Shown piece after piece: positions 12,889-23,818 of a stretch of DNA of 64,000 nucleotides (the stretch's first letter is position 1; the number at the start of each line of letters is the position of its first letter). The stretch is from Sphingomonas sp. HMP9. GTDB lineage: Bacteria > Pseudomonadota > Alphaproteobacteria > Sphingomonadales > Sphingomonadaceae. Where the stretch lies: assembly GCF_013374115.1 (NCBI RefSeq), contig NZ_AP022673.1:186001-250000 (forward strand). The letters are read 5' to 3'. A program made the translations under genes and the position numbers. The notes beneath the pieces are model-generated. The model did no database searches. It saw nothing but the letters and a program-made list of their open reading frames with translations, and was not told the origin of the DNA.

Positions 12889-14625
12889 TCAGGCCGGCGA
12901 GTTGCCCGATCCGCCGTTGAGTGCAGCGGGCTGTTTGTGGGTATCGGGGGAGGTGGTTCGGGCAGGCGCTGCATCCGCGCTGCTTCCGGCGAGCATGCCG
13001 TTCAGCGAATTGCCGGTCATGCCGAGTTCCGCCATCAGGCCATCGATGAGGGGGCCGCCGACGCGGTAGCGCATCGCGGCGGCGACCGCGGCATCGGCGA
13101 GATTGCCCTGGCCACCGCCGGATGCGCCGTCGCTGCCGCCGTCGCCGTGTAGCCCTCGAGCATCGAGGATGCTGATCTTGTCGATGTTCTCCATCGGCTT
13201 GCTCGCGGCAGCGATGATCGCGGGCAGCGCTTCGAGCATCGCGCGGCGGATCAGCAACGCGGTTTGCGCGTCGCTCAACAGGTTGGTCGCCTCGTTGAGC
13301 GATGCCTGACCCGCCGCATCGACCTTGAACGCTGCCTCGCGACCTTCCGCGCGGGCCTTCTCGGCATCGGCTTCGGCCGTCGCTTCGGTGCGCAGGGCAC
13401 TGGCGCGGGCCTCCGCGGCTTCCTTCTCGGCGGTTGCAGCGACGGTGATGCCGACCGCCTCTTCCTGCGCGCGCTGCGTGGCGGCGATGACCGCGACGTT
13501 CTTGTTGCGGTTGGCGATCTCGGTTGCCTTGGCCGTGGCGACGCTTTCCTCGGCGCGGACGGCGAGTGCGCGGGCCTCGTTGGCGGCGGCGGTGGCGGTC
13601 GATTCCTCCTCGGACTTCTGCGCGGTCTGCACAGCCGTCGTGATGCGCGCGATCTCGATCGTGCGGTCGCGTTCGATCGTCGCGGTCTGGATCGCGCCGT
13701 CGCGGGCGATGGTGGCGGTCTGGATCACCTTGTCGGCCTCGGTCTGCGCGACCGTCTGCGCCTGGCTGGCTGTGATGCGGGCGATCTCGGCGAGGCGCGT
13801 CTGCTCGGCCTCCGCGGTGGCGATCGCGGTCGCCTGTTCGGCGCGGCGGGCGGAGAGTGTCTGCTCCTGCGTCAGGCGCGCCTGTTCCGCGGCCTGCGCG
13901 ATCTCGAGCGACTGGTTGTTCGCGTCGAGGTTACGCTGCTCGATCTCGACGCGGTTGGTCGCGACGATATCGTTGCGGATCTTCTTGCGCTCCTCGATCG
14001 TCCGCGTGAGCACGGTCAGACCCTCGGCATCGAACGCGTTGTTCTCGTTGAAATGCTCGAACGCGGTCTGGTCGAAATGCGTGATGCTGACGGACTCGAG
14101 CTGGAAACCGTTCATGTCCAGGTCGGTCATCAGCGCTTCCTGCACCTTCTGGATGAAGTCGGCGCGGTTGGCGTGGAGGTGCTCCATCGTCATCGTCGCG
14201 GCGACCGAACGCAGCGCCGACACAAGCTTGCCGTCGAGCAGCGATTTCACCGCGTCGGGGCTGTTGACCGAGTCACCCAAGGTCTGTGCGGCGGCGGCGA
14301 TCGATTCCGCGTCGGGCTTCACCTTGATGTGGAACAGGCCGACGACGTCGACGCGCAGCTTGTCGAGCGTGATCAGCGCGTCCTTGTTGAGGCGCGACAC
14401 CTCCAGCTTCACCGTCGTCAGGCGGACCTGCATCAGTTCGTGGAGCACCGGGATGACCATGATGCCGCCGTTGAGCACGACCTTCTCGCCGCCGAAGCCG
14501 GTGCGGATCAGCGCCACGTCCTTGGTCGCGCGGCGATACAGCCGGGTCAAAATGATGCCGATCACGACCAGCGAGAACAACACGATACCGGCGTAGATCA
14601 GGACGTTCAGAAGCTGTGCGGGCAT
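12889..14625 (-). CDS. Flotillin family protein (YqiK-like)
   Basis: The 578-residue protein has one N-terminal membrane segment (about residues 8-28), an SPFH/Band 7 domain to about residue 200, then a long Ala/Glu-rich coiled coil (about 210-450) with repeated EIARIT and QTATI units. A Gly/Ser/Ala-rich tail closes it. Bacterial flotillins scaffold ordered membrane microdomains. The YqiJ-like gene just upstream is the usual partner of YqiK-type flotillins, encoding an OB-fold membrane protein. The two genes are 26 bp apart on the same strand. Confidence 0.93.
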   Translation of the reverse strand: MPAQLLNVLIYAGIVLFSLVVIGIILTRLYRRATKDVALIRTGFGGEKVVLNGGIMVIPVLHELMQVRLTTVKLEVSRLNKDALITLDKLRVDVVGLFHIKVKPDAESIAAAAQTLGDSVNSPDAVKSLLDGKLVSALRSVAATMTMEHLHANRADFIQKVQEALMTDLDMNGFQLESVSITHFDQTAFEHFNENNAFDAEGLTVLTRTIEERKKIRNDIVATNRVEIEQRNLDANNQSLEIAQAAEQARLTQEQTLSARRAEQATAIATAEAEQTRLAEIARITASQAQTVAQTEADKVIQTATIARDGAIQTATIERDRTIEIARITTAVQTAQKSEEESTATAAANEARALAVRAEESVATAKATEIANRNKNVAVIAATQRAQEEAVGITVAATAEKEAAEARASALRTEATAEADAEKARAEGREAAFKVDAAGQASLNEATNLLSDAQTALLIRRAMLEALPAIIAAASKPMENIDKISILDARGLHGDGGSDGASGGGQGNLADAAVAAAMRYRVGGPLIDGLMAELGMTGNSLNGMLAGSSADAAPARTTSPDTHKQPAALNGGSGNSPA

Positions 14626-20527: not shown

Positions 20528-21274
20528 ATGCAGGCTGAAATAGCGGCGAGCACCGCAATGATGCCGGCGCACATTCATTTGTTCGCGATGATCACCCTGT
20601 CGACGGACGGACGGACGGACGGAGGCGTCCTTGAACTGGATGCCGATACTCAGATCCGCCAGCGCCTGATCTACTTTCTTCGGCACGACGAGAAGCAGAC
20701 CCGCAAGCGCCGCGCGATGGTGCCGCTCTGCCCGACGCTGGCGCCGTGGCTCGACGGGGTGACCGGCAAGCTCATACGGTATCACACGCCGACCTCGGTA
20801 AAGACGCGTGCGGCTGGTGGGGCGGAGTGGTTCGAGCGCCCGACGGCGAACATCGCGAACGGCTTTGAAGGCGTGTTGCTCGCGGCCCATGCTGCCCGGC
20901 CGGACCTAGGTTTGGCACGGCAGGTGGTAGACGCGGACGGCGAGCCGGTATGGCTAGAGCCGCGCAAGAAACTGGGAGAGACCAAGCGCCGGCCGAAGAT
21001 GGTTGGCATCGGTACGCCCAACACGCTGCGCCACACGATCCACACATGGCATAAGCGTCAAGGCGTGCCTGAAGCGCAGATTGATGCAGTTGCCGGCTAC
21101 AGCGAGCAGGGGACAGGTGCGAGCTATACCCACCTGCGGCCGGAGTACCTTAGAGAGTTTCTCACATCGACCGAAGCGTTCTGGGAAGCGTTCGGCGAGT
21201 TTTCCAGTTCCCATCTGTGCTACGGCAGAACCACGAAAATCATAATTATGAATGTCAGGCGATTACGGGGCTGA
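20528..21274 (+). pseudogene. Tyrosine-type integrase remnant, C-terminal part (copy A)
   Basis: About 248 codons show the catalytic half of a phage/island integrase: MPAHIHLFAMITLSTDGR (active-site Arg region), KQTRKRRAMVPLCPTLAP, TPNTLRHTIHTWHKRQG and the region of the nucleophilic Tyr, GASYTHLRPEYL. The N-terminal DNA-binding domains are missing, and the expected His of the HxxR box is Asn (NTLR). A run of GGAC tetranucleotides (20604-20621) interrupts the first part. It is most likely inactive. A second decayed copy of the same C-terminus lies at 23513-23715. Confidence 0.8.
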
Positions 21275-21276
21275 AT

Positions 21277-21329
21277 TGCCTTGGCGATGGATATTACCGA
21301 ACTGGAAGGAACGAGAGGTCGCCAAGGCA
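21277..21329. repeat. 11-bp perfect inverted repeat at the island's left edge
   Basis: TGCCTTGGCGA (21277-21287) and TCGCCAAGGCA (21319-21329) face each other across 31 nt, between the integrase remnant stop and the stop of the convergent island gene. It could be a bidirectional terminator or an element end; there is no T-run. Confidence 0.55.
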
Positions 21330-21342
21330 CTCTATACGAGGC

Positions 21343-22068
21343 TCAGCCCTCACGGTCCACAACCGGGGGCGGTAGACTAAGGGCGCTCGCTGCTGGCATC
21401 TCGTCTAGCACAGTGGTTTTAAAGACGTCGGCGAAACCAACGGCTAGCTCAGTGACTGAGTTATCGACGCCGCCCGCGATCATTACCGAAATCCCCTGCC
21501 ATGGGCCCGGCAACACATCAGGAAGGCTATCAGTTCCTATCTTAACGAACGGATGGTTGTCGTCTCCGTTGTCACATTCGCAAAGATGAGGAGATGCTGG
21601 CGAAAAGTGAAACGCCAGCGCAAGCCCTGCATCAGTTCGAAGGTTTGCATGACGGTTTTTCGGAACACCCGTCGCGATGAACAAGCCGACGTCGACGTGC
21701 GCCTCTTCGCCAAATTCAGGAAGGCTCTTTATCGAGATACGATATTCGTCGGTGCCTTCGAGCAGGGCGCCAACAGTCGCGTCTCTGAAGCCACAGTAAT
21801 ATCGTTTTTTATCTAACGGGATCGGCGCCGGGGAAAGTCGTTCTTTCAAGTTATCGTTCTGAGCAGTGGCGATTTTACAACCGATACGATGAACTTCTGC
21901 CGAGGTTTCTGCTAAGCGCCGCAAGACGGCCGATTGATGAGAACCGCCGTCCTCCTCGCGCTTCCCGAATTCCCAAAGCTTGGAATTTGCGTGGATATTG
22001 CCTTTAAATAACTGTGGGTAAATGAGGCAACGCGCTATGCGATCAGAATGCTCAATATTGACGGCCAT
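21343..22068 (-). CDS. Island protein 3, unknown function
   Basis: The 241-residue protein is the last gene of the island operon, starting 2 bp after the stop of the gene before it. There is no signal peptide, membrane segment or motif I recognise. It appears soluble, with three cysteines in HLCECD and RYYCGF, a charged N-terminal third and a hydrophobic Gly-rich stretch late (GISVMIAGGVDNS). It lacks the strong G/C-ending codon preference of its core neighbours, consistent with acquired DNA. A role with the two upstream genes is implied only by coupling. Confidence 0.75.
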   Translation of the reverse strand: MAVNIEHSDRIARCLIYPQLFKGNIHANSKLWEFGKREEDGGSHQSAVLRRLAETSAEVHRIGCKIATAQNDNLKERLSPAPIPLDKKRYYCGFRDATVGALLEGTDEYRISIKSLPEFGEEAHVDVGLFIATGVPKNRHANLRTDAGLALAFHFSPASPHLCECDNGDDNHPFVKIGTDSLPDVLPGPWQGISVMIAGGVDNSVTELAVGFADVFKTTVLDEMPAASALSLPPPVVDREG

Positions 22069-22070
22069 GA

Positions 22071-22673
22071 TTAGCGCATATCTTCGATTGCAAACCGATC
22101 AACTTTCAATGAATCTTCAATCCGTAGCTGACGGTGCCCACGGCGAGCGACATACCCCCATTCGCCGTCCGTTACTGTGATGGCATATGTCATGTCTCCG
22201 ACGGCCCAGAGCATTACCACAGCGTCACCCCCGTGCCAGCTTAGCTCTGGAGGAGCATAATTAGACCGTTGAAGGGCGTGCAAAATCTCCTGCGCCGTAT
22301 CAATCGCGGCGTCTTCCATAAGCTCGTCACCGAAATCGTCAGTTGCGTCCCGGAGATCGGAAAGTTGATTCGCGGCCTTTGCGTAATAAGTATCCGCCAG
22401 AGATAGCATCGAGAACGCGCTGTTGGGCGTGGTTTGCGACGGCGCTCCGCTCACTCGAACGTAGCAATACGGCTGGGCGATTTCGGAACCAGTGCCGCTT
22501 TTTGTCAACATTGACTTATGTAAGCGGTAATCTGACGTAATGATATCAACGTCATAAGTTCGACGATTGCTGGTGCTATTCCGAAGCGTGTGTAAATCTA
22601 GAGCGCTGCCGCTCGCAAGAGCGTCCCAGACTGGAGAGCCAGTGTCAACAATTGGACGAGAGTATACGGTCAT
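22071..22673 (-). CDS. Island protein 2, unknown function
   Basis: The 200-residue soluble-looking protein starts with ATG overlapping the preceding stop by 4 bp. The middle third is acidic (SDLRDATDDFGDELMEDAAIDT is the region, at about residues 103-124). The last third has alternating hydrophobic/aromatic strands (VVMLWAVGDMTYAITV, EWGYVARRGH), suggesting a small beta-sheet domain. I recognise no family. It sits in the middle of the three-gene operon, so its product probably works with proteins 1 and 3. Confidence 0.75.
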   Translation of the reverse strand: MTVYSRPIVDTGSPVWDALASGSALDLHTLRNSTSNRRTYDVDIITSDYRLHKSMLTKSGTGSEIAQPYCYVRVSGAPSQTTPNSAFSMLSLADTYYAKAANQLSDLRDATDDFGDELMEDAAIDTAQEILHALQRSNYAPPELSWHGGDAVVMLWAVGDMTYAITVTDGEWGYVARRGHRQLRIEDSLKVDRFAIEDMR

Positions 22674-23416
22674 GCAAACCTTCTGAGCTGATCCCGCACG
22701 ATCGCCAAAGCTTCGTCACGAAGCTCGTCGAAGATAGGTTGTGATAATGCTCTGGGTACAATTTGGCCAGGAGCAGTATTAACGTCAACCTTGCAGCCAA
22801 TATAATTCGACATCGTCATCGGAAGGCCAGCCTGCATACCCTGAGCATTGCCGGCGACGAAACCAAATTGGCCGGTCGACCACGTACATACTCGGTTCAT
22901 GACTAACCACGCGGCACGGGCGAACCGGGTTGGCGCGTTAAATGAGAAGCTCGGGTCAGTTGCCCCTTCGGGGAAGGGTACACCCGGCAGCGAGTCTTGA
23001 AACAGGCTAGCCTTCAACTCGCCATTAATGGTCGCGCCAAGATCTATCACGACTGCGATTCGCACAGGGTCCGACTCGAGTGAAATTCGTTTGGCTAGGT
23101 CGACCAGTAACTGCGTTGCCGCAGGCACGTCTTCAATCCGTGGCGGACCCGACGGTGATGAAATGAGGCCGGGTAGCTGGCGAAAGACCTGGTTCAGATT
23201 GATCGCAATGTGCCCCACTTGCGTGCTCACTGATACGGCATAACCGAGTCGCTCGCCCGATGCGCTAGATTGCAAATTCGGAGACGCGGGATTTCGCTGG
23301 TAGCCGTCGGGCGTGTCACCGGGGAATAGATCGGCCCAAACGGCAGAAGCCTCCCGTGCCGATCCAAATGGAGCGGTGAAGACGACAGCCTGAATGGTAT
23401 CGGCTTGCCATTGCAC
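22670..23416 (-). CDS. Island protein 1, unknown function
   Basis: The 248-residue protein is the first gene of the island operon, with a GTG start (MQWQAD) and an AGGA about 11 nt upstream. It looks like a soluble alpha/beta protein with strands VRIAVVIDLGATI and GYAVSVSTQVGHIAINL and a charged C-terminal helix (DELRDEALAIVRDQLRRF). The layout faintly recalls sporadically distributed TIGR04255-type proteins, but I cannot support a family call. Codon use is AT-richer than the surrounding genes. Confidence 0.75.
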   Translation of the reverse strand: MQWQADTIQAVVFTAPFGSAREASAVWADLFPGDTPDGYQRNPASPNLQSSASGERLGYAVSVSTQVGHIAINLNQVFRQLPGLISSPSGPPRIEDVPAATQLLVDLAKRISLESDPVRIAVVIDLGATINGELKASLFQDSLPGVPFPEGATDPSFSFNAPTRFARAAWLVMNRVCTWSTGQFGFVAGNAQGMQAGLPMTMSNYIGCKVDVNTAPGQIVPRALSQPIFDELRDEALAIVRDQLRRFA

Positions 23417-23512: not shown

Positions 23513-23715
23513 CGGATTGATGCGGTTGCTGGACAAGGCAGCCGGGCCGTAGGCGGCAGATGAACGCGCTTCAGCCGGAGCATCTCGACGAATTTCCTGC
23601 CTCGACCGGAGCGTTCTCGTAGGCGGTAGGCGAGTTCGCCGATACCCATTTGCAATACCAGCGCGATGCCGATGTGGTTGCACTCACCAGCGTGCGGCTA
23701 AAGCGCACTGCATAA
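23513..23715 (+). pseudogene. Decayed integrase C-terminus (copy B)
   Basis: In one frame the fragments RIDAVAG, then LQPEHLDEFPASTGAF, an in-frame stop, and AVGEFADTHLQYQRDAD align with QIDAVAG, LRPEYLREFLTSTEAF and EAFGEFSSSHLCY of copy A. A frameshift separates the first block from the rest. The frame ends in TAA at 23713-23715, 27 bp before the tRNA-Ala 3' end. It is a dead second copy of the same kind of integrase. Confidence 0.75.
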
Positions 23716-23742: not shown

Positions 23743-23818
23743 TGGTGGAGCCACGGGGAATCGAACCCCGGACCTCTGCAGTGCGATTGCAGCGCTCTCC
23801 CATCTGAGCTACGGCCCC
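23743..23818 (-). tRNA. tRNA-Ala (anticodon CGC)
   Basis: The minus strand folds as a 76-nt tRNA with encoded CCA. The acceptor GGGGCCG pairs with TGGCTCC, the D-arm is GCTC/GAGC, and the anticodon stem CTGCA/TGCAG closes loop ATCGCAC with anticodon CGC, reading GCG. The T-arm is CGGGG-TTCGATT-CCCCG. Its 3' end faces the island and the integrase remnants, the usual orientation for integration into a tRNA gene. Confidence 0.97.

Follow-up and report, generated by a model that had tools for sequence, protein, structure and literature searches.

A co-inherited three-gene operon carried by tRNA-targeted elements and a provirus in alphaproteobacteria, with a possible role as a conflict cassette

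Three small minus-strand genes (A, B and C, Table 1) beside a tRNA-Ala gene of Sphingomonas sp. HMP9 form an operon that is inherited as a unit in eight independent loci and travels as cargo of tRNA-targeted elements and of a provirus. The single most likely role of this operon, which we put forward tentatively from the comparative analysis, may be that of a defence or conflict cassette. The DNA analysed, called the window below, is a stretch of 64,000 nucleotides of the contig NZ_AP022673.1.

A preliminary description of the window, made from the sequence alone, had reported three packed minus-strand genes with a 4-bp overlap and a 2-bp gap, AT-richer than their surroundings. The coordinates of the open reading frames agree with the packing (Table 1), B and C being separated by 2 nt (22069-22070). 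The AT-richness also holds, as the GC contents of A, B and C are 0.562, 0.527 and 0.532, respectively, against 0.654 for the whole window, and the two lowest-GC of the 64 one-kb windows are 21001-22000 and 22001-23000.

Table 1. Features of the operon and of the neighbouring tRNA-Ala site (positions in the window)
Feature	Position	Strand	Size	Description
Gene A	22670..23416	-	248 aa	starts with GTG; predicted as an alpha/beta protein of two lobes, with a weak likeness to AdoMetDC and TBP
Gene B	22071..22673	-	200 aa	N-terminus variable; C-terminal block (residues about 136-178) near-constant
Gene C	21343..22068	-	241 aa	predicted alpha/beta domain in residues 1-180; invariant Cys/His/Asp set; tail variable
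A/B overlap	22670..22673	-	4 nt	signature of translational coupling
Left integrase remnant	20570..21274	+		C-terminal part; lacks about 150 residues of the frame in a relative
Right integrase remnant	23569..23706	+		C-terminal end, from an integrase other than the left one; stop inside
tRNA-Ala(CGC)	23743..23818	-		matches Rfam tRNA; integrase insertion site in related genomes

A pattern-limited scan of 84,980 species genomes with B recovered six loci, and a search of IMG/VR added one contig; together with the window these make eight loci. The matches L002, L013 and L073 are exact duplicates of L007, L005 and L004, respectively, and were not recounted. The sources are Sphingomonas sp. OK281, Sphingobium sp. 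66-54 (MAG), Sphingopyxis sp. LC81, Croceibacterium ferulae, an uncultured Beijerinckiaceae bacterium, Roseomonas aerilata, the provirus and the window. All of the loci were located via B, and a form without B is detectable only in the searches with A and C. From Sphingomonadaceae to Roseomonas and Beijerinckiaceae, the order A-B-C is kept in all eight independent loci, the A/B overlap is exactly 4 nt in every one of them, and the B/C gap is from 0 to 4 nt. Such recurrence of the frames, their order and the overlap in eight of eight loci is more than chance. When the eight loci are compared pair by pair, the divergences of the three genes are correlated (r 0.70-0.77; at most one of 2000 permutations was as high), and each gene of the trio is lower in GC than its own locus, again in 8/8.

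When frames of at least 60 aa were compared at E<=1e-5 over about 8 kb per side (less in L008 and L010), the only similarity among the eight loci outside the trio was the integrase region of L004 and L010. Thus, no further frame is common to the eight loci, and a fourth partner was not seen. In the protein database, 13 of the 29 non-window matches of C have a longest contig equal in size to that of a match of B, which suggests that the genes are linked there too. The preliminary description had asked whether the trio co-occurs in other genomes, and had named homologues never found together as the contrary outcome; the three genes are together in all eight loci.

A tRNA gene, an integrase and a repeated tRNA end around the trio were found in L004 and L007. 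The L007 repeat comprises 22 nt from the end of tRNA-Lys and recurs at 14255-14276, about 8.9 kb off and beside the integrase; that of L004 comprises 16 nt from the end of tRNA-Cys and recurs at 13212-13227, about 10.6 kb off, with the integrase inside. The L007 element also encodes an MFS transporter. Within the same tRNA-Lys element, a serine resolvase gene (L007:9436-9981) comes directly after the trio. The IMG/VR provirus L010 contains the trio, in the order tape-measure, tail genes U and D, SRAP-like gene, trio, HTH protein and integrase; the tail genes U and D and the SRAP-like gene were named by reading of the frames, and the tape-measure protein belongs to Pfam PhageMin_Tail, with matches in 213 phage records. 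The preliminary description had supposed a coupled operon of unknown function on integrase islands at tRNA genes, and this is supported by the co-occurrence in the eight loci, by the tRNA-bounded elements of L004 and L007 and by the provirus.

A repeat of the tRNA end was not found in L005 and L008. A partial second tRNA-Arg-like copy (46 nt, 85%) is present at L005:6843-6888, 127 nt before the intact tRNA-Arg adjacent to the trio, and is perhaps a leftover of insertion. There is no tRNA in L006 or L009 (16 kb) or in L010 (14.7 kb), and no convincing repeat flanks the trio of L006 and L009 in the stretch searched. A tRNA gene lies less than 500 nt from the trio in three of the eight loci (window, L005 and L008) and within 5 kb in five (the same with L004 and L007); the binomial chance of each count is about 0.002, for distances picked post hoc and with the tRNA density of one genome (48 tRNAs in 4.0 Mb) applied to all.

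The tRNA-Ala site of the window is an insertion hotspot. Remnants of integrases flank the operon, as had been described, but they are pieces of two different integrases. The left remnant (20570-21268) has 83% identity to residues 151-382 of the L050 integrase, a 383-aa stop-to-stop frame near the same tRNA in a relative, and matches Pfam Phage_integrase weakly (E 0.015). The right remnant matches residues 338-383 of this frame (46 residues, 52% identical; E 1e-9), and in a separate search this match carries one internal TAG. Because the remnants, both C-terminal parts, overlap on the L050 integrase, they derive from two integrases and not from one gene split by the operon, and the site has thus received at least two elements. 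The integrases of the window are dead, and a convincing repeated tRNA end was not found in it. Positions 21209-21226, in the left integrase frame and near the end of the remnant, have 17 of 18 nt in common with the 5' part of tRNA-Ala (23798-23815); this near-repeat may be an att trace or a product of chance.

A 406-nt flank of tRNA-Ala was used as the query against 121 genomes of the genus. It has a match in all 121, among the matches listed mostly with the tRNA alone, and nearly the full query is matched in 11 relatives, of which the cargo side was taken up to 14.6 kb (one stretch is only 7.2 kb). A, B and C are absent from all 11 stretches at E<=1e-5. In L050, the gene pair that comes after the 83%-identical integrase near tRNA-Ala is another one, low in GC and in the same orientation as the trio; this indicates that small cargo turns over at the tRNA-Ala site. 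This coupled unknown pair (L050:699-1636 in raw coordinates; 172 and 146 aa, GC 0.50 and 0.55) lies between the integrase and tRNA-Ala and has no Pfam match at E<=0.01; the 146-aa protein may be HEPN-like. L054 and L059 have a more distant integrase (33%) close to the tRNA, and behind this integrase comes another small gene pair; in both, the last 3.3 kb on the tRNA side hold this second integrase type (411 aa) and the small low-GC pair. The pairs of L054 and L059 are much alike, and one of the L054 proteins is HTH-like by eye. The left integrase has no match in the stretches of the other eight of the 11 relatives.

The trio is rare. A match of A was judged real in two of 298 family genomes, a third match being judged chance, and a match of B in one of 385 class genomes. 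For C, matches were judged real in two of 396 order genomes, one of 61 relatives, one of 200 phylum genomes and two of 295 genus genomes, where a third match was judged chance. In the family search with A, the class search with B and the order and genus searches with C, each match judged real is accompanied by the full trio. The scans of IMG/VR with A, B and C all recover the same single contig, and the plasmid and phage record collections have no match of A, B or C at E<=0.1. Several candidates were rejected as chance matches: L003 as a relative of A (E 3e-4), the frame of which reads by eye as a TonB-dependent receptor; weak, partial matches of C in four of the 200 phylum genomes (E 0.003-0.006); and a weak match of C in G1296, which falls within a frame of 720 aa (E 2e-4).

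The preliminary description had recognised no domain in the three proteins, and we found no credible match of A, B or C in the family, defence or PDB sequence libraries; the matches to unrelated housekeeping families that it had named as the contrary outcome did not appear. No nuclease, protease, NADase or nucleotide-sensor domain was found in them, and no clear membrane span (the highest 19-residue hydrophobicity mean is 1.56). Of the profile and fold comparisons suggested earlier, the profiles gave nothing credible, and the fold matches of the predicted models of A and C were weak. A and C of the window have no PADLOC match at E<=1. A search for known defence genes nearby, as had been suggested, found no PADLOC match at E<=0.05 among 10 neighbouring proteins from L004, L007 and L010.

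In its predicted model, A is a well-predicted two-lobed alpha/beta protein with a weak resemblance to AdoMetDC and TBP. The protein database holds four relatives of A. One of them, a close relative in Sphingomonas aerolata (P0002), is truncated to 170 aa, and the similarity ends after about residue 150; thus, in S. aerolata the cassette appears to be decaying. A candidate relative of A was the TIGR04255 family, a sporadically distributed protein which is like A in its similar length and scattered distribution (in 10 of 100 genomes). However, it has no profile similarity to A and was rejected as a relative: A of the window has no match to its NCBIfam model at E<=1, and hhalign gave E 0.43 for A4 against eight of the ten members, the other two being without a long enough frame. 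The name TIGR04255 was not found in the literature search.

In B, the mean column conservation is 0.19 in residues 1-45 against 0.82 in residues 136-178 (48 rows, 47 distinct). B of the window matches PDC-M01B of PADLOC (E 0.042) over the non-conserved part, and among 41 rows of B, five PADLOC models match one or two rows each, the best being DndH (0.0023, one row). PDC-M01 was rejected as the identity of the system, because the matches of B are weak and outside the conserved block, and ThsA was rejected as a relative of B, because the PDB sequence match of the B profile (E 0.16) is not significant. The C-terminal block of B, as well as C, may resemble widespread short unnamed bacterial proteins. 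The model of C has a pLDDT mostly above 90 over residues 1-180, and the core of C is retained in the alignment: H60, C64, C92, H124, D126, C163, D166, D169 and H172 are invariant in 37 of 37 rows (36 distinct). These Cys, His and Asp residues are probably a metal site.

We propose that A-B-C is a single self-contained, co-translated module that tRNA-targeted integrative elements and temperate phages carry from one alphaproteobacterium to another. From the constant order, the coupling and the co-divergence, we infer that the products may form a complex, which would act against other mobile DNA, as a defence against phages or elements. The two-lobed A would be the recognition or scaffold subunit, and B would be an adaptor joined to A through its near-constant C-terminal domain, while the fast-changing N-terminus of B would contact a variable partner or trigger. 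C, with its invariant Cys/His/Asp cluster, would be the metal-dependent effector. Integration hotspots and prophages are a usual home of anti-phage systems, as small self-contained cassettes (PMC9122126, PMC10121019), and a TBP-like domain has been described in RNase HIII and in certain RNase LS (RnlA) toxins (PMC3710099); thus, conflict appears to be the likeliest role. Against it stand the lack of a credible PADLOC match for the trio and for the 10 neighbours, the lack of a recognised catalytic domain, the weak fold matches and the loci without a tRNA (L006, L009 and L010). A more specific version seems quite unlikely to be right, namely a three-component immune system in which a TBP-like two-lobed A would be the sensor of invading nucleic acid or of a phage product and would act through an adaptor, itself bearing a hypervariable trigger region, to activate an effector that depends on a metal and belongs to a new enzyme family.

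One alternative, less probable than conflict and in our opinion doubtful, is that the trio provides an accessory trait, as a small regulatory complex or an enzyme that depends on a metal (C as the enzyme, with A and B as its partners), which gives a benefit in a niche and is spread by islands. The several invariant acids and histidines give C the look of a metalloprotein, islands bear many kinds of traits, and the MFS transporter of the L007 element and the lack of a PADLOC match among the 10 neighbours are in agreement with this. However, no neighbour except integrases is common to the eight loci, and thus no common pathway surrounds the trio, which is, furthermore, present in a provirus. The small size and coupling of the operon and its residence on mobile elements could also point to an addiction (toxin-antitoxin-like) module that stabilises the carrier elements, in which C or A would be toxic and another subunit neutralising. 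In three relatives, further small gene pairs are adjacent to the tRNA-Ala of this site, and one of 30 rows of C matches the Ntox25 toxin weakly (E 0.013). However, three genes of about 200-250 aa exceed the usual size of such modules, none of the window proteins matches a toxin family of Pfam or NCBIfam at E<=1, and all three genes are kept in 8/8 loci; we consider this explanation unlikely. Least likely of all is that the trio serves its carrier in the control of excision, transfer or packaging. Its presence in tRNA elements and a provirus could be so explained, but the carriers differ in their tRNA targets and have no genes in common except the related integrases of L004 and L010, and L006 and L009 are without a tRNA or a convincing flanking repeat in the stretch searched.

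If the trio is a defence system, its parts would be unlike the systems of the library searched, and the invariant set of C would indicate an undescribed enzyme family. Even if its role is not defence, the trio is compact, rare and inherited together, and, as named environmental bacteria have intact relatives of it, directly testable.

The setting of the trio is already known, while its proteins are without description in the literature searched; a search covering few subscription papers found no title or abstract opening that names such a trio. PMC9122126 and PMC10121019 describe defence cassettes that are small and exchangeable, in P2/P4-like phages and in integrase-only islands. Unlike these, the trio consists of proteins that match no described system tried and is only a candidate for a protective system. 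It is like them in its size class (1-5 kb), in being self-contained, in its high turnover and in its setting with an integrase and a tRNA or in a prophage. The position of the trio in L010 is a further difference: it is between the tail genes on one side and the HTH gene and integrase on the other, and not at the gpA-gpQ hotspot described in PMC9122126.
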